From positions 10,548,001 to 10,612,000 of the forward strand of contig AP031358.1 of the NCBI GenBank assembly GCA_037833965.1: 64,000 nucleotides of DNA, in the 5' to 3' direction. The stretch comes from Marchantia polymorpha subsp. ruderalis. Its lineage: Eukaryota > Streptophyta > Marchantiopsida > Marchantiales > Marchantiaceae. Within the stretch, counting starts at the first letter, position 1. Each line of letters begins with the position of its first letter. This document shows, one piece after another, positions 10,020-63,716 of this stretch. Under the pieces are notes generated by a model that was not told where the DNA came from, made no database searches, and was given only the letters and a program-made list of their open reading frames with translations. The translations under genes were made by a program, and so were the position numbers.

Positions 10020-10022
10020 CTA
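10002..10022 (-). promoter_or_regulatory. In-frame UAG junction between ORF1 and ORF2 (family A)
   Basis: On the minus strand the ORF1 stop TAG is followed by CAA TTC and stays open in the same frame into ORF2. The A6 copy has TAG CAA TCC at 32621-32629. No ATG occurs between the stop and WNIRG. This resembles the tobamovirus-type leaky stop context (UAG CAR YYA), differing at the last base. Readthrough is inferred, not shown. Confidence 0.6.
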
Positions 10023-11690: not shown

Positions 11691-11975
11691 ACGTGAAACA
11701 CTCCCGATTGACACTCTTCGCTTTAGAAATTCGTGAACTTCGGCGTCCCAACTCCAAAATGCGTGAAATTTTGCAGGTTGGAGCGCGCTACCCAACTCCA
11801 CGCCTCTGCAAATTTTCAGCTTCCGTGGACACTCAGACGTGAAGAAACGATCTCTGCAAGAAACGATCTCGACCCCAACACTCGAAAACTCCAACTCGAA
11901 ACTTGAGAAATCCGTGAACTTCGGCGTCCCAACTCCAAAATGCGTGAAATTTTGCAGGTTGGAGCGCGCTACCCA
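11691..11975 (-). repeat. LINE-A distal monomers, about 1.4 units (A3)
   Basis: The same linker and distal 181-bp monomer type as in A1 at 1366-2947, but only ~1.4 units before the 5' end of the element. The distal unit number therefore varies between copies while the proximal block stays at five. Confidence 0.85.
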
Positions 11976-12920: not shown

Positions 12921-13658
12921 ATGGCATCTCAAGACAATTTCATACTCAATCTGTTGCAAACGGTTTTGGAAGAGTTGAAAGTACTACGTGCAGAGTTCAA
13001 GGTACAGAGCTCTACTTTAATTGCAGCTCAATATGAAATTAGAGAGTTGAAGCTCTCTCAAAAGAGTTTCGAGAAGATTATGGTTGATATTTCAGAACAC
13101 GTAGAGGATATCCAGGAGAAAGTTGGTTCTCAAGCTTCCACTGCTGCTACTCCTAGATTGCATGAAGTGGTTGAAAGTCTAGAGGTGAAGATGAAATCTT
13201 ATGCAGAAGCCACCAAGTCTGCTCATATCTCTTTCTGTCAAGAGCAAGAGATTGAAAAGACTAATCAATTTGCTCGTAGAAAGAATGTGAGAATTTCTGG
13301 TCTACCTGAATCTGAGAAGGAAGAGGTGAAGTGTGTTGTCACCAAGTTTTTAGCTGAAACACTTGATGTTCCTAATGCGGATGTGGCTCAAGCTTTTCGC
13401 ATTGGAACCATAGGAACTCAACCTCGAGCCATCATAGTTAAGTTCAATGACCAAACTCAACGTGATACAGCTTTAGCCAACAAAGCTGTACTCAAAGGAC
13501 GTAGGATTTGGTTAGATCCCGATCTCACACCTCTACAAGTAGAGGCAAGGAGAAAGGAGCTTGCAAAAGTCAAAGAAGCTCAAGATGCTGGATTTTTTGC
13601 TTATCTTCGTGATGGACAAGCAATTGTCACTCAAAGGAAGAGACAATCATCCACATAG
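12921..13658 (+). CDS. LINE-B ORF1 RNA-binding protein
   Basis: 245 codons from ATG 12921 (MASQDNFILNLLQTVLEELK) to TAG 13656-13658. The upstream in-frame extension to 12816 lies in the 5' UTR monomer and was not used, because every copy shares this internal ATG. Heptad leucines at ~8-65 suggest a coiled coil. RRKNVRISGLPESEKEE starts the RRM-like domain at ~119, and LKGRRIWLDPDLTPLQ lies in the C-terminal part. The L1-ORF1p-like architecture implies LINE RNP assembly. The frame is intact and is followed by the in-frame TAG CAA TCC junction. Confidence 0.9.
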   Translation: MASQDNFILNLLQTVLEELKVLRAEFKVQSSTLIAAQYEIRELKLSQKSFEKIMVDISEHVEDIQEKVGSQASTAATPRLHEVVESLEVKMKSYAEATKSAHISFCQEQEIEKTNQFARRKNVRISGLPESEKEEVKCVVTKFLAETLDVPNADVAQAFRIGTIGTQPRAIIVKFNDQTQRDTALANKAVLKGRRIWLDPDLTPLQVEARRKELAKVKEAQDAGFFAYLRDGQAIVTQRKRQSST

Positions 13659-19339: not shown

Positions 19340-19966
19340 CTAGGTTGATGATTGTCTCCTCCTCTTGGTGATAATAGCTTGACTATCACGTAGATAAGCT
19401 ACAAAACCTGCATCTTGAGCTTCTTTGACTTTTGCAAGCTCCTTCCTTCTTGCTTCAACTTGAAGAGGTGTAAGATCTGGATCTAACCAAATCCTCCGTC
19501 CCTTGAGAATGGCCTTGTTAGCTAAAGCCATATCACGTTGAGCTTGATCCACAAACTTAACTATAATGGCACGAGGTTGTGTGCCTTTGTTGCCAATACG
19601 ATAAGCATGAGCCAAATCCGGATTAGGAACATCAAGTGTTTCAGTCGAAAACTTGGTGACCACACTCTTCACCTCTTCCTTCTCAGATTCAGGTAGACCC
19701 GAAATCCTCACATTCTTCATACGAGCAAATTGATTAGCCTTTTCAATCTCTTGCTCTTGACAGAAAGAGATATGAGCAGACTTGGTAGCTTCAGCATAGG
19801 ACTTCATTTTCACCTCAAGAGTTTCAACCACTTCATGCAAAGCAGGAGTAGTAACAGTAGAAGCTTGAGAACCAACCTTGTCTTGAATGTCCTCAACAGA
19901 TCCAGAGATTTGGAGCATGATCTTCTCAAAACTTTTGTGAGAAATCTTCAACTCCCTGATTTCATT
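19340..19966 (-). pseudogene. LINE-C ORF1, 5'-truncated (copy C1)
   Basis: About 208 codons of C ORF1 from NEIRELKISHKSF to the TAG at 19340. The N-terminal ~38 codons and the whole 5' UTR are missing because the element is 5'-truncated here. The RRM-like region (RMKNVRISGLPE) and C-terminal domain are present, and so is the TAG CAA TCC junction. The longer frame starting at 20038 runs into unrelated A2 sequence. Confidence 0.85.
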
Positions 19967-22126: not shown

Positions 22127-22540
22127 ATTTTTCAACCCCAACGGAGCTGCTGTCAAGAAGTTGTCATTTCGAATCTTTGAGTTTAGGGATTTGAGCATGA
22201 ATCTTGCGGGGGCCATATCTTCTTGCTGGAGTGTCAACAGGAGTTGAGATTTGGTAGGCTTGTTCACGACGGCCGGGCGTACATACCTGCGAATTTTCAG
22301 CCCCAACGGAGCTGCTGTCAAGAAGTTGTCATTTCGAATCTTTGAGTTTAGGGATTTGAGCATGAATCTTGCGGGGGCCATATCTTCTTGCTGGAGTGTC
22401 AACAGGAGCTGAGATTTGGTGGGCTTGTTCACGACGGCCGGGCGCACATACCTGCGAATTGTCAGCCCCAACGAAGCTGCTGTCAAGAAGTTTTCATTTC
22501 GAAACTTTGAGCTTGTGTAACATCTTGCAAAGTTGGGTTC
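22127..22540 (+). repeat. LINE-C 5' UTR, about two monomers of ~165 bp plus leader
   Basis: GCGGGGGCCA recurs at 22206 and 22371 (165 bp apart). Each unit has ATCTTCTTGCTGGAGTGTC, a GGAG(C/T)TGAGATTTGG box and AATTTTCAGCCCCAACGG. The element starts at ATTTTTCAACCCCAACGG, within ~7 bp of the unit position where C3 starts (29231). Confidence 0.85.
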
Positions 22541-23278
22541 ATGATGGATTCTGAAAACAAACTTCTCAATCTTGTGCAAACGGTTTTGGAGGAATTGAAA
22601 GTGCTACGCCAAGAATTCAAGGCACAAAATGTTGCCTTGGCTGCTGCAAAGAATGAAATCAGGGAGTTGAAGATTTCTCACAAAAGTTTTGAGAAGATCA
22701 TGTTCCAAATCTCTGGATCTGTTGAGGACATTCAAGACAAGGTTGGTTCTCAAGCTTCTACTGTTACTACTCCTGCTTTGCATGAAGTGGTTGAAACTCT
22801 AGAAGTGAAAATGAAGTCCTATGCTGAAGCTACCAAGTCTGCTCATATCTCTTTCTGTCAAGAGCAAGAGATTGAAAAGGCTAATCAATTTGCTCGTATG
22901 AAGAATGTGAGGATTTCGGGTCTACCTGAATCTTAGAAGGAAGAGGTGAAGAGTATGGTCACCAAGTTTTTGACTGAAACACTTGATGTTCCTAATCCGG
23001 ATTTGGCTCATGCTTATCGTATTGGCAACAAAGGCACACAACCTCGTGCCATTATAGTTAAGTTTGTGGATCAAGCTCAACGTAATATGGCTTTAGCTAA
23101 CAAGGCCATTCTCAAGGGACGGAGGATTTGGTTAGATCCAGATCTTACACCTCTTCGAGTTGAAGCAAGAAGGAAGGAGCTTGCAAAAGTCAAAGAAGCT
23201 CAAGATGCAGGTTTTGTAGCTTATCTACGTGATAGTCAAGCTATTATCACCAAGAGGAGGAGACAATCATCAACCTAG
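22541..23278 (+). pseudogene. LINE-C ORF1 with a nonsense codon (copy C2)
   Basis: Starts at ATG 22541 (MMDSENKLLNLVQTVLEELK) and should be 245 codons. A GAG to TAG change at 22934-22936, just after the RRM opening RISGLPES, splits it into 131 and 113 codons. The coiled coil (~8-65) is whole; the RRM-like domain is cut. The downstream part stays open to the usual TAG at 23276-23278. Confidence 0.9.
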
Positions 23279-26200
23279 CAATCCAAGAGATTGAGGGTGT
23301 TGATGTGGAACATAAGAGGCCTATCTACAACTAAGTATGTGAGTGCACATCCGATTTGGAAGATGGCGGACATCCTCAACATTGTTGAGACTTGGGAGCA
23401 TGAAAGTAATGTTATTGGAGAGATACAAGGTTTTACTCTGGTGGGATCTACTTGGAACCATAGAAATCGACGAGCAGGAAGAGGCTTTGGAGGCATTGCT
23501 ACTTTCATCAGATCTGAACTTCTTCCTATGATACATTTGGAAAGCCAAGATATTGGGAAACAATATCATTGGCTTCGTCTTGGATCAATTGGAGGATCTT
23601 ACAGTTATTTGGCAGTTTGTTACTTTGCACCATTATCCATGCAGATCTACTCCACAAGTACTTGCAATCGAAGTCAACCATTCCATCGGCTCATTGAAGA
23701 TGTTCTCAAATATCAAGACAAAGGTGAAGTTTTTCTTGTTGGAGACTTCAATGCCCGCATACGTTCCACTCAATTTGCACAATTTGATAGTTCCTTGTCT
23801 TCCCACTCTTTTGAAGAAAGTAGAGATAGTTTGTGGTCCAGAGTCTCTTGTGATACTTTCACAAATGATTTGACTGAGCATTTCTTGACTTTTGGAGCCA
23901 CTTGTAATCTGAAAGTTCTCAATGGTGTTTCTTTCTTTCCCAACTCTCACTCCAATACATGTTTTTCCTCTACTGGTGTTAGCACTATAGATTATCTTTT
24001 GTCCTCTGCCACTAATAGTTCATTTATCTCAACGTTTGATATTCTAGAGCCTCAACCAGAATCAGATCATACACCTCTTTTATTTACTCTTTTGTTGTCA
24101 ACGTCAATCCCTCTCACTACATGTCACTTTGTTTCTACTTCCCCCAAGTTTTGTTTAGATGCTAGTAAGAAGCAACTTTATAGTGAACATTTCCAAGACC
24201 TCTTGACTTGTACTACTTGGAGCCTTGACCCACATACATCTAGTTTGCAACTAACTGAGTTGCTCCAAAACTCAGCTTCCAAGTTCTTTTTGAGACATAA
24301 GACCAGGAGAGCTAGAGGTCTTCCTTGCAATGGATGGTTTGACTTTGATTGCAAGCAAGCGAGGGCGAGATCACTTGATAAATCCTTGGATCTTCACAAT
24401 CGGTTGATTATGACAAGACTTTACAAAGACTTGGTGAAGTCCAAGAAACGAGCATTTTTGAGGCAGAAGCAAGAGTGCTTGACAAAGGAGCTCTTGGAGA
24501 ATCCCAAATCCTTTTGGAGGCGGTTGGCAGTACGATCTTCTAAACCTACTCTTGATGCCAAGTCTTTGATTTCTTTTGCTGAAAAGCTTTATTTCTTTCC
24601 CAATGTTGCATCTATGCCACATTGTGAAGGAAATCCAGGCTTATTTTCAGAAGTTGAAGTGATGACTCAACTCAGACAATTGGCAAATGGTAAATGTGAG
24701 GATTTGGATGGGCTTTCCATTGAACTTCTCAAGTGGGGAGGAGATGCTATTGGGCCTATACTCACAAAAGTGTTAGAGGATGCTGCTATTCATGGCTTTC
24801 CTTCATCTTGGTCTCTACGGAAGATTGTTCCTATTCACAAATATGGGAGCAAGGCCTTGGTGACAAACTATCGCACTATCATGGTGGGTAGTATTTTTGC
24901 CAAGTTATTTGGCAAATTGGTGGAGTCAAAGTTGAGCACATGGGCTGAATCTTGTCAGAAAAGAGCACAGTTCCAAGCTGGTTTTCGTCCTACATTCAAC
25001 ACTATAGACCATATCTTGGTTTTACGTGTTCTATGGGAGAAATCCAAGGGTAATGGAAAAGCTTTGTTTTGTGCCTTCATTGATTTCAAGAAAGCTTTTG
25101 ACACAGTACCTCGTGAGCTTTTATGGCAAAGATTGCAAACCATTGGAGTACCATCAGATCTCTTGGCAGCGGTGGCTGCATTATACCACTCAGTTCGGGC
25201 CAAGATCAACACTTCTCAAACCGAAGAGATTATCAGCACCATTGGAGTCATTCAAGGTTGTCCTCTCTCTCCCACTCTCTTTGGAGTTTTCATAGATGAT
25301 ATAGAAAGGTGGTTGGAGGATTGTGATAGCGAAGGTGTTAAACTTGGAGGCTTTGTCATCAAAGCTCTTTTGTATGCAGATGATGTCATATTACTAGCAC
25401 GTGATGCCACTAGTTTACAGAAACACCTCGACACTTTGGCTAGCTTTTGTACTCAAAATCAGATGGAAGTCAATTTGGAGAAGTCCAAAGTCATTCTTGT
25501 GGGCACTAGATCCAAGCTCTCTTTCTGTTACAAAGGATTAGAGTTGGAACAAGTGAAAAGTTACAAATATTTGGGCATTGATTTCTCATCTGATTATAGT
25601 TGGGCACTTTGTGTGCAAAAGAGGGTAGAAGCTGGTTTCAAAGCTCTATATTCATTGCTAAATAGATGTAGAGGAGCTCATCTAGTGTCTTGGAGTCTTA
25701 GGAAATTCTTATTCAGGAGCTTAGTGTTTCCCGTTATCTTATATGGAACACAAGTGTGGGGTCCTGGTTGTAAGAAGACAGGTTGGCAGCGTTTGGAGAG
25801 GGTGCAAAAGATCTTCTTACAAGAAGAATTGGGTGTGAGGACCCAAACTTCTTATGCAATTCTTCTTGCGGAAACAGGTTGTCTACCTCTTGAGGCTGAA
25901 GCTCTCTTTTTGACTATCACTTACGTCAAAAGAGTGAGATCTCTTGATGCTTCTCGACTTCCTCTTGAAGCTTTGCGTGCCACACGTCCCAAGGGTTGGT
26001 TTGCAGATGTGGTGACTTGGTCTTTGAGGTGGAATGTGACGGAACTCGATTGGAATTTGCAACCTATTGCCCTACGCGAGCGTATTAAGGAGGAATTTCT
26101 CAGCATTATGTGGAGCAGACGAGGCACCAAGATGCAGTTTTATCAATTTCATGTGAATCCTATGCTTGTTTATTGTGAGCAAGGATACTTACTTGCAGAG

Positions 26201-26503
26201 ATATCTACTTCTTTACGTCATATTATTGCTAGACATAGAACTGGATCCCATAGTCTTGGGATTGAAGAAGGGCGTTGGTTGAACATTGATAGGAGTGAAC
26301 GTATTTGTAGGCTATGTGATGGAAGAAAAGTTGAGGATGAAGAGCATGTATTTCTTACTTGTTCTAGGTATGTAGAGATTCGAGTGGCGCATAAAGTTGA
26401 TGTCGAGAATTTCTTTTCTCTGCTTCAACTCGAGCCTTATGATTTAGGTTGTTACATTAGAGATATTATTAGTTACCGTTCTAGTGCTTTGGGCACTAGC
26501 TAG
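23279..26503 (+). CDS. LINE-C ORF2: endonuclease, RT, zinc motif (copy C2)
   Basis: Open from the codon after the ORF1 stop to TAG 26501-26503. The first ATG is 23303 (MWNIRG). In order: endonuclease MWNIRG, VETWEHE, GDFNARIR, STIDY, SDH (about residues 5-260); RT FIDFKKAFD (~596), QGCPLSP (~655), YADD (~695); zinc motif C-x2-C-x9-H-x4-C (~1006-1024). Length matches the intact C8 copy. It differs from C8 at a few residues (for example HKYGSK for HKSGSK). The ORF1 nonsense change would still block a readthrough product. Confidence 0.88.
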   Translation, partial: QSKRLRVLMWNIRGLSTTKYVSAHPIWKMADILNIVETWEHESNVIGEIQGFTLVGSTWNHRNRRAGRGFGGIATFIRSELLPMIHLESQDIGKQYHWLRLGSIGGSYSYLAVCYFAPLSMQIYSTSTCNRSQPFHRLIEDVLKYQDKGEVFLVGDFNARIRSTQFAQFDSSLSSHSFEESRDSLWSRVSCDTFTNDLTEHFLTFGATCNLKVLNGVSFFPNSHSNTCFSSTGVSTIDYLLSSATNSSFISTFDILEPQPESDHTPLLFTLLLSTSIPLTTCHFVSTSPKFCLDASKKQLYSEHFQDLLTCTTWSLDPHTSSLQLTELLQNSASKFFLRHKTRRARGLPCNGWFDFDCKQARARSLDKSLDLHNRLIMTRLYKDLVKSKKRAFLRQKQECLTKELLENPKSFWRRLAVRSSKPTLDAKSLISFAEKLYFFPNVASMPHCEGNPGLFSEVEVMTQLRQLANGKCEDLDGLSIELLKWGGDAIGPILTKVLEDAAIHGFPSSWSLRKIVPIHKYGSKALVTNYRTIMVGSIFAKLFGKLVESKLSTWAESCQKRAQFQAGFRPTFNTIDHILVLRVLWEKSKGNGKALFCAFIDFKKAFDTVPRELLWQRLQTIGVPSDLLAAVAALYHSVRAKINTSQTEEIISTIGVIQGCPLSPTLFGVFIDDIERWLEDCDSEGVKLGGFVIKALLYADDVILLARDATSLQKHLDTLASFCTQNQMEVNLEKSKVILVGTRSKLSFCYKGLELEQVKSYKYLGIDFSSDYSWALCVQKRVEAGFKALYSLLNRCRGAHLVSWSLRKFLFRSLVFPVILYGTQVWGPGCKKTGWQRLERVQKIFLQEELGVRTQTSYAILLAETGCLPLEAEALFLTITYVKRVRSLDASRLPLEALRATRPKGWFADVVTWSLRWNVTELDWNLQPIALRERIKEEFLSIMWSRRGTKMQFYQFHVNPMLVYCEQGYLLAEISTSLRHIIARHRTGSHSLGIEEGRWLNIDRSERICRLCDGRKVEDEEHVFLTCSRYVEIRVAHKVDVENFFSLLQLEPYDLGCYIRDIISYRSSALGTS

Positions 26504-27597: not shown

Positions 27598-27816
27598 AAG
27601 GCTGAAAAACACAATACAAGCGACAGCCACAAACAAGGGAAAAGACCCCAAAGGCCAAACCCTAGCTAGTGCCAAGAGCACTAGAACGATAACTAATAAT
27701 GTCCCTAATATAACAACCTAAATCAAAAGGAACTAACTGTAACAAAGAATAAAAATTCTCTACATCTATATTATGGGTCACTCTAATGTTCACTCTGTCC
27801 CTTCGGGGACATCCGA

Positions 27817-27848
<32 letters not shown>

Positions 27849-27895
27849 GGCCCCTGCGCAAGGATGACACGCACAAATCGAGAAATGGTCCAAAT
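27598..27895 (-). mobile_element. Chimeric LINE-B 3' end plus inverted U6 insertion
   Basis: About 0.3 kb placed in B2 ORF2 and flanked by TCCAAA. On the minus strand it reads full-length U6 in antisense, ~9 nt of filler (27788-27796), then the sense 3' end of a LINE-B (27598-27787: last codons and part of the 3' UTR) stopping at CAGCCTTTT, before the hairpin and heptamer tail. The right-hand 7 nt TCCAAAT (27889-27895) is both the U6 3' end and the target. Confidence 0.8.
27797..27895 (+). ncRNA. U6 spliceosomal snRNA copy (retro-pseudogene)
   Basis: 99 nt. Starts with GTCCCTTCGGGGACATCC (5' stem-loop), contains GATACAGAGAAGATTAGC (the ACAGAGA box that pairs with the 5' splice site, then the AGC triad) and ends AAATGGTCCAAAT. 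It agrees with my memory of land-plant U6 over its full length, except that the terminal U-run is missing. It lacks a plant upstream sequence element (TCCCACATCG type) near -60. A chance TATATT lies at about -30 inside LINE sequence. There is no T-run terminator. It is therefore probably not transcribed and was made from U6 RNA by LINE machinery. Confidence 0.93.
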
Positions 27896-28871
27896 AATGT
27901 TCAGAAACTCCTCCTTTAGACGTTCACGTAGTGCTATAGGTTGTAGGTCCCAATCGCGTTCCGTCACATTCCACCTCAAAGACCAAGTTATCACATCCGC
28001 TAACCATCCTTTGGCACGTGTGGCACTCAAAGCCTGAGGAGGAAGGCGAGAAGCATCAAGAGATCTCACCCTTGTGATGTAAGTGATGGTCAAGTATAGA
28101 GCTTCAGCCTCTAGAGGTAAACAACCTGTTTCCGCAAGAAGAATAGCATATGAGGTTTGGTTTCTCACACCCAATTCTTCTTGTAGAAATATCTTCTGCA
28201 TCCTCTCCACACGCTCCCATCCTGTCTTCTTACAACCAGGACCCCACACTTGGGTTCCATACAATACTACCGGCAACACTAAGCTTCTGAATAAAAATTT
28301 CCTAAGACTCCAAGACACAAGATGAGCCCTTCTACACCGATTTAGCAATGAATATAGAGCTTTGTAACCACCTTCTACTCTCTTTTGCACACAAAGTGCC
28401 CAACTATAATCATTAGAAAAATCAATGCCTAGATATTTATAACTCTTCACCTCTTCTAATTGTAGATCCTGGTAATAGAAGGAAAACTTGGATCTAGTGC
28501 CCACTATCATGACTTTGGACTTCTCTATATTTACCTCCATCTGATTCTTTTTACAAAACCTAGCCAAAGTGTATAGGTGTTTCTGTAAACTAATTGCATC
28601 ACGTGCTAGTAATATGATATCATCTGCATACAAGAGAGCTTTGATAACAAAGTTTCCAAACTTGACACCTTCACTATCACATGCCTCCAACCACTCTTCG
28701 ATATCATCTATAAAAACTCCAAAAAGAGTAGGAGAGAGAGGACAACCTTGAATCACTCCAATGGTACTCAAAACCTCTTCAATTTGAGAAGTGTTGATCT
28801 TGGCTCGAACAGATTGGTAAAGCGTGGCCACAGCTGCTAGAAGATCTGATGGTACTCCAATGATGGTACTC

Positions 28872-29156: not shown

Positions 29157-29230
29157 GGTTTGGCCTTTGGGGTCTTTTCCCTTGTTTGTGGCTGTCGCTT
29201 GTATTGTGTTTTTCAGCCTTTTGACCCTTT

Positions 29231-29803
29231 ACAGCCCCAACAGAGCTGCTGTCAAGAAGTTGTCATTTCGAAACTTTGAGTTTATGGATTTGAGCATGAA
29301 TCTTGCGGGGGCCATATCTTCTTGTTGGAGTTTCAACAGGAGCTGAGATTTGGTGGGCTTGTTTACAACGGACGGACGCACATACCTGCAAATTTTCAGC
29401 CCCAACGGAGCTGCTGTCAAGAAGTTGTCATTTCGAAACTTTGAGTTTAGGGATTTGAGCATGAATCTTGTGGGGGCCATATCTTCTTGCTGGAGTGTCA
29501 ACAGGAGCTGAGATTTGGTGGGCTTGTTCACAACGGCCGGGCGCACATACCTGCAAATTTACAGCCCCAACAGAGCTGCTGTCAAGAAGTTGTCATTTCG
29601 AAACTTTGAGTTTAGGGATTTGAGCATAAACTTGCGGGGGCCATATCTTCTTGCTGGAGTTTCAACAGTAGCTGAGATTTGGTGGGCTTGTTCACAACGG
29701 ACGGACGCACATACCTGCAAATTTTCAGCCCCAACGGAGCTGCTTTCAAGAAGTTGTCATTTCAAAACTTTGAGCTTGTGTAACATCTTGCAAAGTTGGG
29801 TTC
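29231..29803 (+). repeat. LINE-C 5' UTR, about three ~165-bp monomers plus leader
   Basis: The (G/T)GGGGGCCA landmark lies near 29304, 29470 and 29634 (164-166 bp apart). It starts at ACAGCCCCAAC, the same unit position as the C2 5' end. The leader before ORF1 (CTTGTGTAACATCTTGC) is shared by all C copies. Confidence 0.85.
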
Positions 29804-30541
29804 ATGATGGATTCTGAAAACAAACTTCTCAATCTTGTGCAAACGGTTTTGGAGGAATTGAAAGTGCTACGCCAAGAATTCAAGGCACAAAATGTTGCCT
29901 TGGCTGCTGCAAAGAATGAAATCAGGGAGTTGAAGATTTCTCACAAAAGTTTTGAGAAGATCATGTTCCAAATCTCTGGATCTGTTGAGGACATTCAAGA
30001 CAAGGTTGGTTCTCAAGCTTCTACTGTTACTACTCCTGCTTTGCATGAAGTGGTTGAAACTCTAGAGGTGAAAATGAAGTCCTATGCTGAAGCTACCAAG
30101 TCTGCTCATATCTCCTTCTGTCAAGAGCAAGAGATTGAAAAGGCTAATCAATTTGCTCATATGAAGAATGTAAGGATTTCGGGTCTACCTGAATCTGAGA
30201 AGGAAGAGGTGAAGAGTGTGGTCACCAAGTTTTTGACTGAAACACTTGATGTTCCTAATCCGGATTTGGCTCATGCTTATCGTATTGGCAACAAAGGCAC
30301 ACAACCTCGTGCCATTATTGTCAAGTTTGTAGATCAAGCTCAACGTGATATGGCTTTAGCTAACAAGGCCATTCTCAAGGGACGGAGGATTTGGTTGGAT
30401 CCAGATCTTACACCTCTTCAAGTTGAAGCAAGGAGGAAGGAGCTTGCAAAAGTCAAAGAAGCTCAAGATGCAGGTTTTGTAGCTTATCTACGTGATAGTC
30501 AAGCTATTATCACCAAGAGAAGGAGACAATCATCAACCTAG
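29804..30541 (+). CDS. LINE-C ORF1 RNA-binding protein (copy C3)
   Basis: 245 codons, ATG 29804 (MMDSENKLL), TAG 30539-30541. N-terminal heptad leucines at ~8-65 (coiled coil). KNVRISGLPESEKEEVKSVV opens the RRM-like domain at ~121. LKGRRIWLDPDLTPLQVEARRKEL and YLRDSQAI lie in the C-terminal domain. The likely job is coating LINE RNA and forming the RNP. It differs from C8 by single residues (for example FAHMKNV for FARMKNV). The stop is TAG CAA TCC with ORF2 open in the same frame. The frame itself is intact. Confidence 0.9.
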   Translation: MMDSENKLLNLVQTVLEELKVLRQEFKAQNVALAAAKNEIRELKISHKSFEKIMFQISGSVEDIQDKVGSQASTVTTPALHEVVETLEVKMKSYAEATKSAHISFCQEQEIEKANQFAHMKNVRISGLPESEKEEVKSVVTKFLTETLDVPNPDLAHAYRIGNKGTQPRAIIVKFVDQAQRDMALANKAILKGRRIWLDPDLTPLQVEARRKELAKVKEAQDAGFVAYLRDSQAIITKRRRQSST

Positions 30542-30969
30542 CAATCCAAGAGATTGAGGGTGTTGATGTGGAACATAAGAGGCCTATCTACAACTAAGTA
30601 TGTGAGTGCACATCCGATTTGGAAGATGGCGGACATCCTCAACATTGTTGAGACTTGGGAGCATGAAAGTAATGTTATTGGAGAGATACAAGGTTTTACT
30701 CTGGTGGGATCTACTTGGAACCATAGAAATCGAAGAGCAGGAAGAGGCATTGCTACTTTCATCAGATCTGAACTTCTTCCTATGATACATTTGGAAAGCC
30801 AAGATATTGGGAAACAATATCATTGGCTTCGTCTTGGATTGATTGGAGGATCTTACAGTTATTTGGCAGTTTGCTACTTTGCACCATTATCCATGCAGAT
30901 CTACTCCACAAGCACTTGCAATCGAAGTCAACCATTCCATCGGCTCATAGGAGATGTTCTCAAATATCA
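30542..30969 (+). pseudogene. LINE-C ORF2, first piece (copy C3)
   Basis: The first ~142 codons of ORF2 (MWNIRG at 30566, VETWEHE, YLAVCYFAPLS), cut at KYQ by A6. A 9-nt in-frame deletion near 30747 removes three codons (FGG) from the conserved GFGGIATF motif of the endonuclease, so the enzyme was probably weakened even before the insertion. Confidence 0.85.
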
Positions 30970-31867
30970 GACATTTTTATCTTTTTGACGAAGCATGATC
31001 TGAGGCTGAAAATTTTTGGGGACTTGGAGATTAATATTTGGCAGTAGCATAAAAAGTTTGAAGGTTAACGGACGTTTGAGTCAGAAGTTACAGCCCATTT
31101 GGAGTTTCGACTTTTTGTTTCGAGTGTTCTGGTGGTCACAAAAATGTTCAGACATTTTTATCTTTTTGACGAAGCATGATCTGAGGCTGAAAATTTTTGG
31201 GGACTTGGAGATCAATATTTGGCAGTAGCATAAAAAGTTTGAAGGTCAACGGACGCTTAAGTCAGAAGTTACTGCCCATTTGGAGTTTCGACTTTTTGTT
31301 TCGAGTGTTCCGGTGGTCTCAAAAATGTTCAGACATTTTTATCTCTTTGACGAAGCATGATCTGAGGCTGAAAATTTTTGGGGACTTGGAGATCAATATT
31401 TGGCACTAGCATAAAAAGTTTGAAGATCAACGGACGCTTGAGTCAGAAGTTACAGCCCATTTGGAGTTTCGACTTTTTGTTTCGAGTGTTCCAGTGGTCT
31501 CAAAAATGTTCAGACATTTTTATCTTTTTGACGAAGCATGACCTGAGGCTGAAAATTTTTGGGGACTTGGAGATCAATATTTGGCAGTAGCATAAAAAGT
31601 TTGAAGGTGATTGGACGCTTGAGTCAGAAGTTACAGCCCATTTGGAGTTTCGACTTTTTGTTTAGAGTGTTCCGAGAGTCACAAAAATGTTCAGACATTT
31701 TTATCTTTTTGATGAAGCATGATCAGAGGCTGAAAATTTTTGGGGACTTGGAGATTGATATTCGGCAGTAGCATAAAAAGTTTGAAGGTGCATGGAGGCT
31801 TGAGTGAGAAGTTACGATATTTTTTGGTGTTTCGACCTAGAATTTAGAGTGTTTCGGTTGATACGAC
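30970..31867 (+). repeat. LINE-A 5' UTR, about five proximal 181-bp monomers (A6)
   Basis: Units are repeated every 181 bp; AAATTTTTGGGGACTTGGAG recurs near 31009, 31190, 31371, 31552 and 31733. The first unit is truncated at the 5' end of the element. The last unit is the diverged, ORF1-proximal type seen in A1 and A3. Confidence 0.85.
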
Positions 31868-32623
31868 ATGGCTTCTCAAGACGATATTTTTCAGCTTCTG
31901 CAAACAATTTTCGAAGAATTGAAGGAACTTCGACATGAATTCAAGATGCAACAGGCTGCTTTAACTCTCGCACATAATCAAATTCGAGAGTTGAAGGGAT
32001 CACAGAAGAACGTGGAGAAGGTGTTCAAGGATAGTGTGGGTGTGATGTGGGATGTATCTAAATCTGTTGATGACATCCAAGGGAAGGTATGCTCTCAGAT
32101 GACAAGTGCGGATAGTCCTAGATTGCATGAGGTGGTCGAAAGCTTAGATTTGAAGATCAAATCCTACGCTGAAGCTACAAAGGCTGCTCAAATCTCTTTT
32201 TGTCAAGAACAAGAGATTGAAAAGTCCAACCAGCTTGCACGTAGGAAGAATGTGAGAATTTCAGGTTTACCTGAAATAGAGAATGAAGATGTCAAGAGTG
32301 TTGTCACCAAGTTTTTGGATGAAACACTTCAGGTGTCCAATGCGGAATTGGCTCAAGCTTTTCGTATTGGAAACAAGGGAGCTCAACCTCGTGGTATTAT
32401 AGTGAAGTTTGTCAATCAAACTCAACGTGATGTTGCCTTGGCTAATAAGGCTATGTTAAAGGGACGTAGAATATGGTTGGATCCTGATCTGACTCCTCTA
32501 CAAGTGGAAGTTAGGAGAAAGGAGCTTGCGAAGGTAAAAGAGGCTCAAGAATCGGGTTTTGTTGCTTATTTACACGATGGGAGAGCAATCGTTACTCAGA
32601 GGAGGAAGGTGTCGTCAACATAG
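31868..32623 (+). CDS. LINE-A ORF1 RNA-binding protein (copy A6)
   Basis: 251 codons from ATG 31868 (MASQDDIFQLLQTIFEELKELRHEF) to TAG 32621-32623. Coiled-coil heptads at ~5-65, a spacer with KSYAEATKAAQISFCQEQEIEK, the RRM-like start RRKNVRISGLPEIENED at ~125, and C-terminal KGRRIWLDPDLTPLQ. It is nearly identical to A3 ORF1. It is followed by TAG CAA TCC and continues in frame into ORF2 with no ATG before WNIRG, the same arrangement as A3. Confidence 0.9.
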   Translation: MASQDDIFQLLQTIFEELKELRHEFKMQQAALTLAHNQIRELKGSQKNVEKVFKDSVGVMWDVSKSVDDIQGKVCSQMTSADSPRLHEVVESLDLKIKSYAEATKAAQISFCQEQEIEKSNQLARRKNVRISGLPEIENEDVKSVVTKFLDETLQVSNAELAQAFRIGNKGAQPRGIIVKFVNQTQRDVALANKAMLKGRRIWLDPDLTPLQVEVRRKELAKVKEAQESGFVAYLHDGRAIVTQRRKVSST

Positions 32624-47181: not shown

Positions 47182-47919
47182 ATGATGGATTCTGAAAACA
47201 AACTTCTCAATCTTGTGCAAACGGTTTTGGAGGAATTGAAAGTGCTACGCCAAGAATTCAAGGCACAAAATGTTGCCTTGGCTGCTGCAAAGAATGAAAT
47301 CAGGGAGTTGAAGATTTCTCACAAAAGTTTTGAGAAGATCATGCTCCAAATCTCTGGATCTGTTGAGGACATTCAAGACAAGGTTGGTTCTCAAGCTTCT
47401 ACTGTTACTACTCCTGCTTTGCATGAAGTGGTTGAAACTCTAGAAGTGAAAATGAAGTCCTATGCTGAAGCTACCAAGTCTGCTCATATCTCTTTCTGTC
47501 AAGAGCAAGAGATTGAAAAGGCTAATCAATTTGCTCGTATGAAGAATGTGAGGATTTCGGGTCTACCTGAATCTGAGAAGGAAGAGGTGAAGAGTATGGT
47601 CACCAAGTTTTTGACTGAAACACTTGATGTTCCTAATCCGGATTTGGCTCATGCTTATCGTATTGGCAACAAAGGCACACAACCTCGTGCCATTATAGTT
47701 AAGTTTGTGGATCAAGCTCAACGTGATATGGCTTTAGCTAACAAGGCCATTCTCAAGGGACGGAGGATTTGGTTAGATCCAGATCTTACACCTCTTCAAG
47801 TTGAAGCAAGAAGGAAGGAGCTTGCAAAAGTCAAAGAAGCTCAAGATGCAGGTTTTGTAGCTTATCTACGTGATAGTCAAGCTATTATCACCAAGAGGAG
47901 GAGACAATCATCAACCTAG
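47182..47919 (+). CDS. LINE-C ORF1 RNA-binding protein (copy C8)
   Basis: 245 codons, ATG 47182 (MMDSENKLLNLVQTVLEELKVLRQEF), TAG 47917-47919. Coiled-coil heptads at ~8-65 (LLNLVQTVLEEL, EIRELKIS, EDIQDKV). Linker KSYAEATKSAHISFCQEQEIEKANQ. RRM-like domain from KNVRISGLPE at ~121, with PRAIIVKF as a second strand. Basic CTD KGRRIWLDPDLTPLQVEARRKEL. Architecture of L1 ORF1p: a trimerising RNA chaperone for LINE RNA. No defects. Followed in frame by ORF2 across TAG CAA TCC. Confidence 0.92.
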   Translation: MMDSENKLLNLVQTVLEELKVLRQEFKAQNVALAAAKNEIRELKISHKSFEKIMLQISGSVEDIQDKVGSQASTVTTPALHEVVETLEVKMKSYAEATKSAHISFCQEQEIEKANQFARMKNVRISGLPESEKEEVKSMVTKFLTETLDVPNPDLAHAYRIGNKGTQPRAIIVKFVDQAQRDMALANKAILKGRRIWLDPDLTPLQVEARRKELAKVKEAQDAGFVAYLRDSQAIITKRRRQSST

Positions 47920-47946
47920 CAATCCAAGAGATTGAGGGTGTTGATG
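47917..47946 (+). promoter_or_regulatory. In-frame UAG junction between ORF1 and ORF2 (family C)
   Basis: TAG CAA TCC, then seven open codons to the ATG at 47944 (MWNIRG). The same junction occurs at 23276 (C2), 30539 (C3) and, on the minus strand, 19340 (C1) and 62979 (C5). Codons after the stop encode QSKRLRVL and keep this reading in the other families with synonymous changes, so the region seems to be translated. Termination-reinitiation at the ATG is the alternative for B and C but not for A. Confidence 0.6.
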
Positions 47947-50900
47947 TGGAACATAAGAGGCCTATCTACAACTAAGTATGTGAGTGCACATCCGATTTGG
48001 AAGATGGCGGACATCCTCAACATTGTTGAGACTTGGGAGCATGAAAGTAATGTTATTGGAGAGATACAAGGTTTTACTCTGGTGGGATCTACTTGGAACC
48101 ATAGAAATCGACGAGCAGGAAGAGGCTTTGGAGGCATTGCTACTTTCATCAGATCTGAACTTCTTCCTATGATACATTTGGAAAGCCAAGATATTGGGAA
48201 ACAATATCATTGGCTTCGTCTTGGATCAATTGGAGGATCTTACAGTTATTTGGCAGTTTGTTACTTTGCACCATTATCCATGCAAATCTATTCCACAAGT
48301 ACTTGCAATCGAAGTCAACCATTCCATCGGCTCATTGGAGATGTTCTCAAATATCAAGACAAAGGTGAAGTTTTTCTTGTTGGAGACTTCAATGCCCGCA
48401 TACGTTCCACTCAATTTACACAATTTGATAGTTCCTTGTCTTCCCACTCTTTTGAAGAAAGTAGAGATAGTTTGTGGTCTAGAGTCTCTTGTGATACTTT
48501 CACAAATGATTTGACTGAGCATTTCTTGACTTTTGGAGCCACTTGTAATCTGAAAGTTCTCAATGGTGTTTCTTTCTTTCCCAACTCTCACTCCAATACA
48601 TGTTTTTCCTCTACTGGTGTTAGCACTATAGATTATCTTTTGTCCTCTGCCACTAATAGTTCATTTATCTCAACGTTTGATATTCTAGAGCCTCAACCAG
48701 AATCAGATCATACACCTCTTTTATTTACTCTTTTGTTGTCAACGTCAATCCCTCTCACTACATGTCACTTTGTTTCTACTTCCCCCAAGTTTTGTTTAGA
48801 TGCTAGTAAGAAGCAACTTTATAGTGAACATTTCCAAGACCTCTTGACTTGTACTACTTGGAGCCTTGATCCACATACATCTAGTTTGCAACTAACTGAG
48901 TTGCTCCAAAACTCTGCTTCCAAGTTCTTTTTGAGACATAAGACCAGGAGAGCTAGAGGTCTTCCTTGCAATGGATGGTTTGACTTTGATTGCAAGCAAG
49001 CGAGGGCGAGATCACTTGATAAATCCTTCGATCTTCACAATCGGTTGATTATGACAAGACTTTACAAAGACTTGGTGAAGTCCAAGAAACGAGCATTTTT
49101 GAGGCAGAAGCAAGAGTGCTTGACAAAGGAGCTCTTGGAGAATCCCAAATCCTTTTGGAGGCGGTTGGCAGTACGATCTTCTAAACCTACTCTTGATGCC
49201 AAGTCTTTGATTTCTTTTGCTGAAAAGCTTTATTTCTTTCCCAATGTTGCATCTATGCCACATTGTGAAGGAAATCCAGGCTTATTTTCAGAAGTTGAAG
49301 TGATGACTCAACTCAGACAATTGGCAAATGGTAAATGTGAGGATTTGGATGGGCTTTCCATTGAACTTCTCAAGTGGGGAGGAGATGCTATTGGGCCTAT
49401 ACTCACAAAAGTGTTAGAGGATGCTGCTATTCATGGCTTTCCTTCATCTTGGTCTCTACGGAAGATTGTTCCTATTCACAAATCTGGGAGCAAGGCCTTG
49501 GTGACAAACTATCGCACTATCATGGTGGGTAGTATTTTTGCCAAGTTATTTGGCAAATTGGTGGAGTCAAAGTTGAGCACATGGGCTGAATCTTGTCATA
49601 AAAGAGCACAGTTCCAAGCTGGTTTTCGTCCTACATTCAACACTATAGACCATATCTTGGTTTTACGTGTTCTATGGGAGAAATCCAAGGGTAATGGAAA
49701 AGCTTTGTTTTGTGCCTTCATTGATTTCAAGAAAGCTTTTGACACAGTACCTCGTGAGCTTTTATGGCAAAGATTGCAAACCATTGGAGTACCATCAGAT
49801 CTCTTGGCAGCGGTGGCTGCATTATACCACTCAGTTCGGGCCAAGATCAACACTTCTCAAACCGAAGAGATTATCAGCACCATTGGAGTCATTCAAGGTT
49901 GTCCTCTCTCTCCCACTCTCTTTGGAGTTTTCATAGATGATATAGAAAGGTGGTTGGAGGATTGTGATAGCGAAGGTGTTAAACTTGGAGGCTTTGTCAT
50001 CAAAGCTCTTTTGTATGCAGATGATGTCATATTACTAGCACGTGATGCCACTAGTTTACAGAAACACCTCGACACTTTGGCTAGCTTTTGTACTCAAAAT
50101 CAGATGGAAGTCAATTTGGAGAAGTCCAAAGTCATTCTTGTGGGCACTAGATCCAAGCTCTCTTTCTGTTACAAAGGATTAGAGTTGGAACAAGTGAAAA
50201 GTTACAAATATTTGGGCATTGATTTCTCATCTGATTATAGTTGGGCACTTTGTGTGCAAAAGAGGGTAGAAGCTGGTTTCAAAGCTCTATATTCATTGCT
50301 AAATAGATGTAGAGGAGCTCATCTAGTGTCTTGGAGTCTTAGGAAATTCTTATTCAAGAGCTTAGTGTTTCCCGTTATCTTATATGGAACACAAGTGTGG
50401 GGTCCTGGTTGTAAGAAGACAGGTTGGCAGCGTTTGGAGAGGGTGCAAAAGATCTTCTTACAAGAAGAATTGGGTGTGAGGACCCAAACTTCTTATGCAA
50501 TTCTTCTTGCGGAAACAGGTTGTCTACCTCTTGAGGCTGAAGCTCTCTTTTTGACTATCACTTACGTCAAAAGAGTGAGATCTCTTGATGCTTCTCGACT
50601 TCCTCTTGAAGCTTTGCGTGCCACACGTCCCAAGGGTTGGTTTGCAGATGTGGTGACTTGGTCTTTGAGGTGGAATGTGACGGAACTCGATTGGAATTTG
50701 CAACCTATTGCCCTACGCGAGCGTATTAAGGAGGAATTTCTCAGCATTATGTGGAGCAGACGAGGCACCAAGATGCAGTTTTATCAATTTCATGTGAATC
50801 CTATGCTTGTTTATTGTGAGCAAGGATACTTACTTGCAGAGATATCTACTTCTTTACGTCATATTATTGCTAGACATAGAACTGGATCCCATAGTCTTGG

Positions 50901-51144
50901 GATTGAAGAAGGGCGTTGGTTGAACATTGATAGGAGTGAACGTATTTGTAGGCTATGTGATGGAAGAAAAGTTGAGGATGAAGAGCATGTATTTCTTACT
51001 TGTTCTAGGTATGTAGAGATTCGAGTGGCGCATAAAGTTGATGTCGAGAATTTCTTTTCTCTACTTCAACTCGAGCCTTATGATTTAGGTTGTTACATTA
51101 GAGATATTATTAGTTACCGTTCTAGTGCTTTGGGCACTAGCTAG
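47920..51144 (+). CDS. LINE-C ORF2: endonuclease, RT, zinc motif (copy C8)
   Basis: Reference copy for the family, about 1070 codons to TAG 51142-51144. Numbering from the TTG at 47932: endonuclease with N7 in MWNIRG, E33 in VETWEHE, GDFNAR at 151-156, STIDY at 231, D259/H260 in SDH. RT with FIDFKKAFD at 596, IQGCPLSP at 654 and YADD at 695-698. Zinc motif C1006, C1009, H1019, C1024. All canonical catalytic residues are present. There is no RNase H domain. It nicks DNA and primes reverse transcription of its own RNA at the nick, in the nucleus. The first ATG is 47944. Confidence 0.92.
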   Translation, partial: QSKRLRVLMWNIRGLSTTKYVSAHPIWKMADILNIVETWEHESNVIGEIQGFTLVGSTWNHRNRRAGRGFGGIATFIRSELLPMIHLESQDIGKQYHWLRLGSIGGSYSYLAVCYFAPLSMQIYSTSTCNRSQPFHRLIGDVLKYQDKGEVFLVGDFNARIRSTQFTQFDSSLSSHSFEESRDSLWSRVSCDTFTNDLTEHFLTFGATCNLKVLNGVSFFPNSHSNTCFSSTGVSTIDYLLSSATNSSFISTFDILEPQPESDHTPLLFTLLLSTSIPLTTCHFVSTSPKFCLDASKKQLYSEHFQDLLTCTTWSLDPHTSSLQLTELLQNSASKFFLRHKTRRARGLPCNGWFDFDCKQARARSLDKSFDLHNRLIMTRLYKDLVKSKKRAFLRQKQECLTKELLENPKSFWRRLAVRSSKPTLDAKSLISFAEKLYFFPNVASMPHCEGNPGLFSEVEVMTQLRQLANGKCEDLDGLSIELLKWGGDAIGPILTKVLEDAAIHGFPSSWSLRKIVPIHKSGSKALVTNYRTIMVGSIFAKLFGKLVESKLSTWAESCHKRAQFQAGFRPTFNTIDHILVLRVLWEKSKGNGKALFCAFIDFKKAFDTVPRELLWQRLQTIGVPSDLLAAVAALYHSVRAKINTSQTEEIISTIGVIQGCPLSPTLFGVFIDDIERWLEDCDSEGVKLGGFVIKALLYADDVILLARDATSLQKHLDTLASFCTQNQMEVNLEKSKVILVGTRSKLSFCYKGLELEQVKSYKYLGIDFSSDYSWALCVQKRVEAGFKALYSLLNRCRGAHLVSWSLRKFLFKSLVFPVILYGTQVWGPGCKKTGWQRLERVQKIFLQEELGVRTQTSYAILLAETGCLPLEAEALFLTITYVKRVRSLDASRLPLEALRATRPKGWFADVVTWSLRWNVTELDWNLQPIALRERIKEEFLSIMWSRRGTKMQFYQFHVNPMLVYCEQGYLLAEISTSLRHIIARHRTGSHSLGIEEGRWLNIDRSERICRLCDGRKVEDEEHVFLTCSRYVEIRVAHKVDVENFFSLLQLEPYDLGCYIRDIISYRSSALGTS

Positions 51145-53662: not shown

Positions 53663-55611
53663 ATGCGTCCAATTTTGAGTTTCGAGCTTTGAGTTTCAAG
53701 ATTTGAGGGCAAGAGATTCTTACGGGAGCTGTATCTTCTACGTTCGGAGTGATCTGGAGCTGAAATTTGGTGCAACGCTGGAGTAGAGCAGGGCGCATCC
53801 GCCTGCAAAATTTCAAGCAGAACGCCATTCGGAGCGAGAAGTTGACGTGTCTTGGAGGTCTGAGCTTTTTGAGAGGGGAGGGCCGAATCTTGCGGGGGCC
53901 GTAACTTTGGGCTCAAGTGTGAACGGGGGCTGAAATTTTGTGGCGTTGTGACGTTGGGTAGAGCGCTCAAGCCTGTCAATTTTCAGGTCGAACGGAGTTT
54001 CAGAGTCACAGTGCGTCAAATTTTGAGTTTTGAGCTTTGAGTTTCAAGATTTGAGGGCAAGAGATTCTTACGGGAGCTGTATCTTCTACGTTCGGAGTGA
54101 TCTGGAGCTGAAATTTGGGGCAACGCTGGAGTAGGGCAGGGCGCATCCGCTTGCAAAATTTCAAGCAGAACGCCATTCGGAGCGAGAAGTTGACGTGTCT
54201 TGGAGGTCTGAGCTTTTTGAGAGGGGAGGGCCGAATCTTGCGGGGGCCGTAACTTTGGGCTCGAGTGTGAACGGGGGCTGAAATTTTGTGGCGTTGTGAC
54301 GTTGGGTAGAGCGCTCAAGCCTGTCAATTTTCAGGTCGAACGGAGTTTCAGAGTCACAGTGCGTCCAATTTTGAGTTTTGAGCTTTGAGTTTCAAGATTT
54401 GAGGGCAAGAGATTCTTACGGGAGCTGTATCTTCTATGTTAGGAGTGATCTGGAGCTGAAATTTGGTGCAACGCTGGAGTAGGGCAGGGCGCATCCGCTT
54501 GCAAAATTTCAAGCAGAACGCCATTCGGAGCGAGAAGTTGACGTGTCTTGGAGGTCTGAGCTTTTTGAGAGGGGAGGGCCGAATCTTGCGGGGGCCGTAA
54601 CTTTGGGCTCAAGTGTGAACGGGGGCTGAAATTTTGTGGCGTTGTGACGTTGGGTAGAGCGCTCAAGCCTGTCAATTTTCAGATTGAACGGAGTTTCAGA
54701 GTCACAGTGCGTCCAATTTTGAGTTTCGAGCTTTGAGTTTCAAGATTTGAGGGCAAGAGATTCTTACGGGAGCTATATCTTCTACGTTCGGAGTGATCTG
54801 GAGCTGAAATTTGGTGCAACGCTGGAGTAGGGCAGGGCGCATTCGCCTGCAAAATTTCAAGCAGAACGCCATTCGGAGCGAGAAGTTGACGTGTCTTGGA
54901 GGTCTGAGCTTTTTGAGAGGGGAGGGCCGAATCTTGCGGGGGCCGTAACTTTGGTCTCGAGTGTGAACGGGGGCTGAAATTTTATGGCGTTGTGACGTTG
55001 GGTAGAGCGCTCAAGCCTGTCAATTTTCAGATTGAACGGAGTGTCAGAGTCACAGTGCGTCCAATTTTGAGTTTCGAGCTTTGAGTTTCAAGATTTGAGG
55101 GCAAGAGATTCTTACGGGAGCTGTATCTTCTACGTTCGGAGTGATCTGGAGCTGAAATTTGGTGCAACGCTGGAGTGGGGCAGGGCGCATCCGCCTGCAA
55201 AATTTCAAGCAGAACGCCATTCGGAGCGAGAAGTTGACGTGTCTTGGAGGTCTGAGCTTTTTGAGAGGGGAGGGCCGAATCTTGCGGGGGCCGTAACTTT
55301 GGGCTCGAGTGTGAACGGGGGCTGAAATTTTGTGGCTTTGTGACGTTGGGTAGAGCGCTCAAGGCTGTCAATTTTCAGGTCTAACGGAGTTTTAGAGTCA
55401 CAGTGCGTCCAATTTTGAGTTTCGAGCTTTGAGTTTCAAGATTTGAGGGGAAGAGATTCTTACGGGAGCTGTATCTTCTACGTTCGGAGTGATCTGGAGC
55501 TGAAATTTGGTGGAACGCTGGAGTAGGGCAGGGCGCATCAGCCTGCAAAATTTCAAGCAGAACGCCATTCGGAGCGAGAAGTTGACGTGCCTTGGAGTTC
55601 TGAGCTTTTCG
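53663..55611 (+). repeat. LINE-B 5' UTR, about 5.6 monomers of 348 bp
   Basis: GCGGGGGCC recurs at about 53892, 54240, 54588, 54935 and 55283 (347-348 bp). Units are ~97% alike by eye. Each is a dimer of two ~174-bp halves that share a GTATCTT/GTAACTT box, a GCTGAAATTT box and a CCTG...AATTTCA box. C monomers have the same three boxes in the same order. Probable promoter array, by analogy with monomeric L1 elements. Confidence 0.88.
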
Positions 55612-56349
55612 ATGGCGTCTCAAGACAATTTCATACTCAATCTGTTGCAAACGGTTTTGGAAGAGTTGAAAGTACTACGTGCAGAGTTCAAGGTACAGAG
55701 CTCTACTTTAATTGCAGCTCAATATGAAATTAGAGAGTTGAAGCTCTCTCAAAAGAGTTTCGAGAAGATTATGGTTGATATTTCAGAACACGTAGAGGAT
55801 ATCCAGGAGAAAGTTGGTTCTCAAGCTTCCACTGCTGCTACTCCTAGATTGCATGAAGTGGTTGAAAGTCTAGAGGTGAAGATGAAATCTTATGCAGAAG
55901 CCACCAAGTCTGCTCATATCTCTTTCTGTCAAGAGCAAGAGATTGAAAAAACTAATCAATTTGCTCGTAGAAAGAATGTGAGAATTTCTGGTCTACCTGA
56001 ATCTGAGAAGGAAGAGGTGAAGAGTGTTGTCACCAAGTTTTTAGCTGAAACACTTGATGTTCCTAATGCGGATGTGGCTCAAGCTTTTCGCATTGGAACC
56101 ATAGGAACTCAACCTCGAGCCATCATAGTTAAGTTCAATGACCAAACTCAACGTGATACAGCTTTAGCCAACAAAGCTGTACTCAAAGGACGTAGGATTT
56201 GGTTAGATCCCGATCTCACACCTCTACAAGTAGAGGCAAGGAGAAAGGAGCTTGCAAAAGTCAAAGAAGCTCAAGATGCTGGATTTTTTGCTTATCTTCG
56301 TGATGGACAAGCAATTGTCACTCAAAGGAAGAGACAATCATCCACATAG
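55612..56349 (+). CDS. LINE-B ORF1 RNA-binding protein (copy B6)
   Basis: 245 codons from ATG 55612 (MASQDNFILNLLQTVLEELKVLRAEF) to TAG 56347-56349. Coiled coil at ~8-65, RRM-like domain from RRKNVRISGLPESEKEEVKSVV, CTD with LKGRRIWLDPDLTPLQ. It differs from B1 ORF1 by one or two residues (VKSVV for VKCVV). The in-frame stretch before the ATG (from 55507) is monomer sequence. The TAG CAA TCC junction follows. Confidence 0.9.
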   Translation: MASQDNFILNLLQTVLEELKVLRAEFKVQSSTLIAAQYEIRELKLSQKSFEKIMVDISEHVEDIQEKVGSQASTAATPRLHEVVESLEVKMKSYAEATKSAHISFCQEQEIEKTNQFARRKNVRISGLPESEKEEVKSVVTKFLAETLDVPNADVAQAFRIGTIGTQPRAIIVKFNDQTQRDTALANKAVLKGRRIWLDPDLTPLQVEARRKELAKVKEAQDAGFFAYLRDGQAIVTQRKRQSST

Positions 56350-62978: not shown

Positions 62979-63716
62979 CTAGGTTGATGATTGTCTCCTC
63001 CTCTTGGTGATAATAGCTTGACTATCACGTAGATAAGCTACAAAACCTGCATCTTGAGCTTCTTTGACTTTTGCAAGCTCCTTCCTCCTTGCTTCAACTT
63101 GAAGAGGTGTAAGATCTGGATCTAACCAAATCCTCCGTCCCTTGAGAATGGCCTTGTTAGCTAAAGCCATATCACGTTGAGCTTGATCTACAAACTTAAC
63201 AATAATGGCACGAGGTTGTGTGCCTTTGTTGCCAATACGATAAGCATGAGCCAAATCCGGATTAGGAACATCAAGTGTTTCAGTCAAAAACTTGGTGACC
63301 ACACTCTTCACCTCTTCCTTCTCAGATTCAGGTAGACCCGAAATCATCACATTCTTCATACGAGCAAATTGATTAGCCTTTTCAATCTCTTGCTCTTGAC
63401 AGAAAGAGATATGAGCAGACTTGGTAGCTTCAGCATAGGACTTCATTTTCACCTCAAGAGTTTCAACCACTTCATGCAAAGCAGGAGTAGTAACAGTAGA
63501 AGCTTGAGAACCAACCTTGTCTTGAATGTCCTCAACAGATCCAGAGATTTGGAGCATGATCTTCTCAAAACTTTTGTGAGAAATCTTCAACTCCCTGATT
63601 TCATTCTTTGCAGCAGCCAAGGCAACATTTTGTGCCTTGAATTCTTGGCGTAGCACTTTCAATTCCTCCAAAACCGTTTGCACAAGATTGAGAAATTTGT
63701 TTTCAGAATCCATCAT
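62979..63716 (-). CDS. LINE-C ORF1 RNA-binding protein (copy C5)
   Basis: 245 codons from ATG 63716 (MMDSENKFLNLVQTVLEELK) to TAG 62981-62979. Coiled-coil heptads at ~8-65, RRM-like domain from KNVMISGLPE (R to M at a position that is Arg in every other copy), and intact CTD. The in-frame extension up to 63869 is 5' UTR. The TAG CAA TCC junction to ORF2 is present. The frame is intact, but R to M in the first RRM strand may weaken RNA binding; that is inference. Confidence 0.9.
   Translation of the reverse strand: MMDSENKFLNLVQTVLEELKVLRQEFKAQNVALAAAKNEIRELKISHKSFEKIMLQISGSVEDIQDKVGSQASTVTTPALHEVVETLEVKMKSYAEATKSAHISFCQEQEIEKANQFARMKNVMISGLPESEKEEVKSVVTKFLTETLDVPNPDLAHAYRIGNKGTQPRAIIVKFVDQAQRDMALANKAILKGRRIWLDPDLTPLQVEARRKELAKVKEAQDAGFVAYLRDSQAIITKRRRQSST

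Follow-up and report, generated by a model that had tools for sequence, protein, structure and literature searches.

Organization of the LINE copies and their ORF1-ORF2 junctions

We analyzed a 64,000-nucleotide stretch of the Marchantia polymorpha genome, referred to here as the window, on contig C9 (10.55-10.61 Mb); the genome consists of 9 contigs with 241,466,482 bases in total. Most of the window consisted of copies of L1-like long interspersed nuclear elements (LINEs) nested in one another, together with tandem arrays. The copies considered here belong to three families, A, B and C. The arrangement can be described in a family C copy on the forward strand. Open reading frame 1 (ORF1; 47182..47916, 245 aa) was followed by an in-frame TAG (47917..47919) and then directly by ORF2 (47920..51141, 1074 codons), which encodes an APE-type endonuclease and a reverse transcriptase (RT) and ended with TAG GGG at 51142 (stop 51142-51144). 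ORF1, stop and ORF2 were contiguous in a single frame with a spacer length of zero. The first nine codons after the stop (QSKRLRVLM, 47920..47946, forward strand), here called the leader, comprised the hexamer CAATCC and then part of the modelled strand 1 of the endonuclease. The first in-frame ATG of the leader was at 47944-47946. Across the families, ORF1 had a length of 245-251 aa and ORF2 of about 1074 codons.

The same junction was found in the other copies. In family A, the TAG was located at 10020..10022 on the reverse strand (ORF1 10023-10775, ORF2 6813-10019) and at 32621..32623 on the forward strand (ORF1 31868-32620). In the case of family B, it was located at 13656..13658 (ORF1 12921-13655) and 56347..56349 (ORF1 55612-56346), both on the forward strand. 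The remaining family C junctions were at 19340..19342 (reverse), 23276..23278 (forward; ORF1 22541-23275, ORF2 23279-26500), 30539..30541 (forward) and 62979..62981 (reverse; ORF1 62982-63716). TAG CAA TYC was present in frame in all nine window junctions, with TTC only in the copy at 10022 and TCC elsewhere. No second stop was found from 20 codons before to 29 codons after the TAG in any of the nine. The first-pass annotation had described one frame and a sole nearby TAG followed by CAA and TYC, and this description was correct for every window copy. The ORF1-TAG-ORF2 arrangement is thus real and kept in three families. The junction DNA came from one genome, and relatives outside it were compared as proteins.

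The predicted proteins resembled those of human LINE-1 (L1). The AlphaFold2 model of ORF1 showed a long coiled coil, an RNA recognition motif (RRM) and a C-terminal domain (mean predicted local distance difference test score 86.1, predicted template modelling score 0.52). The best Foldseek matches of this model were human L1 ORF1p (2yko, 2ykp and 2ykq), and a comparison of ORF1 with Pfam gave no significant match. ORF2 matched RVT_1 (6.1e-33) and Exo_endo_phos (4.9e-09) in Pfam. The fold of its endonuclease matched the human L1 APE endonuclease 1vyb, and its RT was similar in sequence to 8sxt. By sequence and model, the elements are L1-like LINEs with the L1-type domain content in ORF1 and ORF2. 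Residues 2-11 after the stop corresponded to strand 1 of the modelled endonuclease, so a start at codon 9 would truncate the enzyme.

ORF2 start codon and conservation of the leader

We then considered where translation of ORF2 could begin. Codon 9 was ATG in the examined copies of B and C, and this was the first in-frame ATG (+27 nucleotides (nt) from the first base of the stop). This ATG sits in a weak start context, with T at -3 and +4. In the five copies scanned, no AUG touched or overlapped the stop, and none of the frames contained one from -44 to +27. In family A, codon 9 was GTG in both window copies. Genome-wide, it was GTG in 93, CTG in 1 and ATG in 1 of 95 family A matches, which made the early observation of GTG in place of ATG stronger than first stated. 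The only match with ATG (C9:14564057-14564083) was an outlier away from the cluster. The next in-frame ATG of family A was +87 nt from the stop's first base, downstream of the conserved endonuclease Asn, as had also been claimed at first. When family A was reached with protein P0001 and 43 of 2,345 candidates were scored, 38 copies had no internal stop, 34 had an exact match to the GTG site where it was expected, and 30 had both. These counts indicated that family A multiplied with almost no ORF2 AUG.

The leader was compared among the families using one copy each, the copy at 32621 representing family A. Pairwise synonymous divergence (dS) among the three families was about 0.6-1.4; for example, ORF2 of C and A gave dS 0.617 with a nonsynonymous divergence (dN) of 0.113, and ORF1 of A and B gave dS 1.385 and dN 0.169. 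Fourfold sites were invariant across the families at 46/122 positions overall and at 9/38 within 60 codons of the junction. The hexamer CAATCC was invariant at all six positions, and the 24-base leader of eight codons had 6 variable columns (7 when the second A copy at 10022, with TTC, was included). The binomial P was 2.6e-4 against a variable fraction of 0.62 and 2e-7 against 0.76. Since the leader was less variable than fourfold sites, it is unlikely, by this sequence comparison, to be a neutral spacer. The variable share was 6/24 columns in the leader versus 76/122 at fourfold sites. The earlier argument from synonymous third-base changes was weak, because codon 8 (TTG/TTA) held the one plain synonymous difference among the A, B and C leaders.

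Candidate readthrough of the UAG codon

The context of the stop resembled a known readthrough signal. UAG CAA UYC equals the type I signal UAG CAR YYA except for the final base, and the initial description of a context one base away from the tobamovirus signal held in 9/9 window junctions. The consensus is given in PMC5382211, and natural contexts tabulated in a review include UAG-CAA-UUA and UAG-CAA-UYA (PMC3542737). In plants, the tobacco mosaic virus context was described as giving 32% readthrough in transient assays; the estimate for transgenic lines was 6-10% (PMC2754532). The base after UAG was C in all nine junctions, not the G or purine beside UAG of the type III feature. In a set of seven 200-base stretches with diverged junctions (three places found by a motif pattern without the main families and four chosen from 100 listed matches), TAG CAA TCC was kept in 6/7. 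The exception, L062 (C4:15268650-15268849), was leader-like from CAATCC onward, and its upstream sequence was unrelated and open in frame.

We propose that most ribosomes would terminate at the UAG, releasing ORF1p, and that a minority would decode the UAG via a near-cognate tRNA, aided by the CAA UYC context, and would produce an ORF1p-ORF2p fusion. ORF1p would then greatly outnumber the enzyme, as for gag versus gag-pol. The zero spacer, the single frame, the lack of AUG in 94/95 family A matches and the position of the post-stop codons in the endonuclease fold model favored this reading, which had been put forward in the first-pass annotation. The final base of the signal, the lack of a clear RNA structure and the possibility of non-AUG starts spoke against it. 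On balance, we lean slightly toward UAG readthrough as the best explanation for ORF2 expression; what we infer is the decoding of the UAG, how often it occurs and the fusion protein. We found no report of a readthrough LINE in the literature searched, which left most subscription journals outside. There is an even chance that these elements, which occur in hundreds of copies in centromere-like regions of a land plant and include one family nearly without an ORF2 start codon, are the first LINE in which programmed readthrough of a UAG, set in a relaxed version of the type I signal (UAG CAA UYC), yields the RT as part of an ORF1p-ORF2p fusion. ORF2 translation in LINEs, human L1 included, is unsettled. 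A LINE in which a single stop links ORF2 to ORF1 and ORF2 mostly lacks a start codon would reduce the question to a simple reporter test, and Marchantia is a genetically tractable plant for it. If the reading is true, gag-pol style readthrough extends to non-LTR (long terminal repeat) retrotransposons, and land plants have one more natural leaky UAG context.

Several results weighed against readthrough. The sixth base after the stop was C, not A, in 9/9 window junctions. In a mammalian mutagenesis study with a UGA stop, all six CARYYA positions appeared important (PMC4132726), so the absent final A is a real weakness. Single-copy folds gave no clear structure downstream of the stop, with z-scores of -1.36 to +0.98. 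The most negative single-copy values lay upstream of the stop, at -2.16 for B and -1.71 for C, compared with -0.55 for A and +0.33 for the second A copy. Consensus folds of four copies were scored in 11 windows; the 120 nt immediately downstream of the stop gave z = -1.98, and the other ten windows ranged from -0.56 to +0.91. These folds cover local windows, and their z-scores were not counted as support for readthrough. At the leader, the conservation of the hexamer was not exceptional for coding sequence, because three invariant codons in a row occurred in 23/438 coding windows. The Nei-Gojobori (NG86) dN/dS ratios of the eight leader codons, a calculation proposed at the outset, were 0.70 for C-A, 0.25 for C-B and 0.85 for A-B; with about 5 synonymous sites, they were uninformative. 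In addition, proteins of the AUG-bearing families B or C could have helped to move family A in trans.

The stop codon itself was also less informative than it appeared. Genome-wide junctions were collected with a pattern in which the stop and the codon after it could vary while C was required at the third position of codon 2, so they say nothing on the sixth base. TAG was found in 375/381 of them and TAA CAA YYC in 3; the other 3 were not assigned. TAA junctions were few, and they occurred in each of the three families. Among 68 junction contexts from loci L001-L060, in which overlapping loci were counted more than once, one had a TAA stop and two had an extra TAA four codons upstream. The first 30 loci (L001-L030) had 29 TAG and 1 TAA. 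Both ORFs were open from ATG in 13 of these loci (12 distinct), with 12 TAG and 1 TAA. As a control, the terminal stop of ORF2 was TAG GGG or TAG GGT in 18/18 window matches reaching the last residue. The genome-wide retention of TAG was dropped as strong support. Because the copies are young and the stop at the end of ORF2 varies just as little, the constancy of TAG is weak evidence for readthrough.

Alternative modes of ORF2 expression

One alternative to readthrough is that ribosomes terminate at the UAG and then initiate just past it, independently of an AUG or at a near-cognate codon, for example codon 5 or, in family A, the codon 9 GUG. Codon 5 was UUG in B and C and AUA in A, one base off AUG in all three families. 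It aligned with an internal Met of protein P0002, and the predicted start of P0007 was about one residue earlier. A start there would yield an ORF2p beginning M-R-V-L-(M/V)-W-N, and the GUG of family A is itself a possible start. However, UUG and AUA are poor start codons. Initiation after the stop would leave codons 1-2 (CAA TCC) as untranslated spacer, yet no change was seen in them among A (32621), B and C, in contrast to most fourfold sites. The single frame, the zero spacer and the lack of a second stop would also be coincidence, whereas readthrough requires all three. In human L1, initiation of ORF2 is suspected not to depend on its AUG (PMC5009743), which speaks for this rival reading. 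Taken together, initiation just past the stop was the serious rival, less likely than readthrough but with a substantial share of the probability. Ordinary reinitiation would use the first in-frame ATG of B and C at codon 9. It fails for family A, because that AUG is absent in 94/95 matches. The weak context of the ATG and the loss of most of the modelled endonuclease strand 1 also counted against it, and we regard it as improbable.

The other alternatives involve the RNA or the code. The AG of the TAG could act as a 3' splice site, with a subgenomic mRNA joining part of ORF1 to ORF2, and this would favor TAG over TAA or TGA. A GT at -372 nt, counted from the end of the TAG, was common to 4/4 copies tested and kept the frame, and a second GT at -537 was common to 3/4. 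However, the candidate GT sites matched 7/9 donor positions only, and no U-rich tract preceded the TAG. The GT at -372 lies inside conserved NVR codons, and its use would delete the RRM and the C-terminal domain. Splicing was therefore considered very improbable. A separate ORF2 transcript started inside ORF1, with the stop not bypassed, is just as doubtful. Such a case is suggested by the gag-pol junction of the LTR element Tca2, which was described as having a minor promoter and no readthrough in yeast (PMC2194720). However, Tca2 pol was concluded to be translated from gag-pol RNA all the same (PMC2194720), and a separate transcript gives family A no start codon. A genome-wide code change, with TAG read as an amino acid, has almost no probability, and nothing in its favor was found. 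The terminal TAG of ORF2 at 18/18 window 3' ends argues against it, and the plant nuclear code is the standard one.

Comparison with known systems and relatives

The proposed UAG readthrough was compared with known systems. The elements share UAG, CAA and two pyrimidines with the type I signal of tobamoviruses, benyviruses and pomoviruses. They differ in that the final base is C and that the element is a LINE with a putative signal. In gammaretroviruses, a single UAG in one frame likewise separates the structural protein from the RT, but a pseudoknot is needed and G follows the stop (PMC3542737), in contrast to CAA without clear structure here. The inter-ORF spacer of human L1 is 63 nt (PMC5972666), whereas the Marchantia elements have zero spacer and one stop. 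The SART1 LINE also has ORF2 directly at ORF1 termination. However, SART1 uses an overlapping stop-start site and a downstream structure (PMC5972666), and no such AUG was present in the Marchantia elements.

No relatives were found in the viral contigs and genome contigs searched. The protein relative P0001 (40%) is silent on the junction, because its sequence begins after the leader. ORF1 matched named Marchantia proteins, and ORF1 relatives were found as proteins in Riccia fluitans and R. sorocarpa with 39-46% local identity. Those Riccia relatives reaching the C-terminus shared their end point to within a few residues, and P0049 ended earlier. By this protein comparison, the end of ORF1 may be old, because the Riccia relatives stop near the same place.

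Genomic distribution and other features of the window

A genome-wide survey of ORF2 was performed, in which 43 of 2,945 candidates were scored. On all nine contigs, the matches fell in one interval of less than 1 Mb per contig (41/43), and the other 2 were elsewhere on C4. Because of their position, the nine LINE-dense intervals are probably centromeres. Marchantia centromeres are described as central except on the male sex chromosome (PMC13078153). Zepp/ZeppL (PMC8226300) and Celine (PMC11288735) are likewise LINEs with copies clustered at centromeres; Celine differs in having overlapping ORFs and a DUF4283 ORF1 (PMC11288735). No description of centromeric LINE clustering in Marchantia was found in the literature searched.

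Tandem arrays were located just upstream of ORF1, and the repeat unit differed by family. The unit was 181 bp in family A (10828-11692 and 30967-31815), 348 bp in family B (12003-12917 and 53664-55609) and 165 bp in family C (22129-22511 and 29228-29774). These arrays are reminiscent of the monomer promoters of mouse L1. A full-length U6 small nuclear RNA (105 bits, Rfam RF00026) was found at 27797-27899 on the forward strand, inside a reverse-strand family B ORF2 fragment, and LINE sequence was missing around it. It is perhaps a U6 retrocopy or a chimera made with LINE machinery. Two pairs of copies on C9 (10439549/10571279 and 10464190/10595920) were identical over both ORFs within each pair. 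Together with the same offset of 131,730 bases in both pairs, this suggests a large segmental duplication including part of the window. Three copies on C3 (15135459, 15140304 and 15145149) were spaced by exactly 4,845 bases and are possibly a tandem array of the element.
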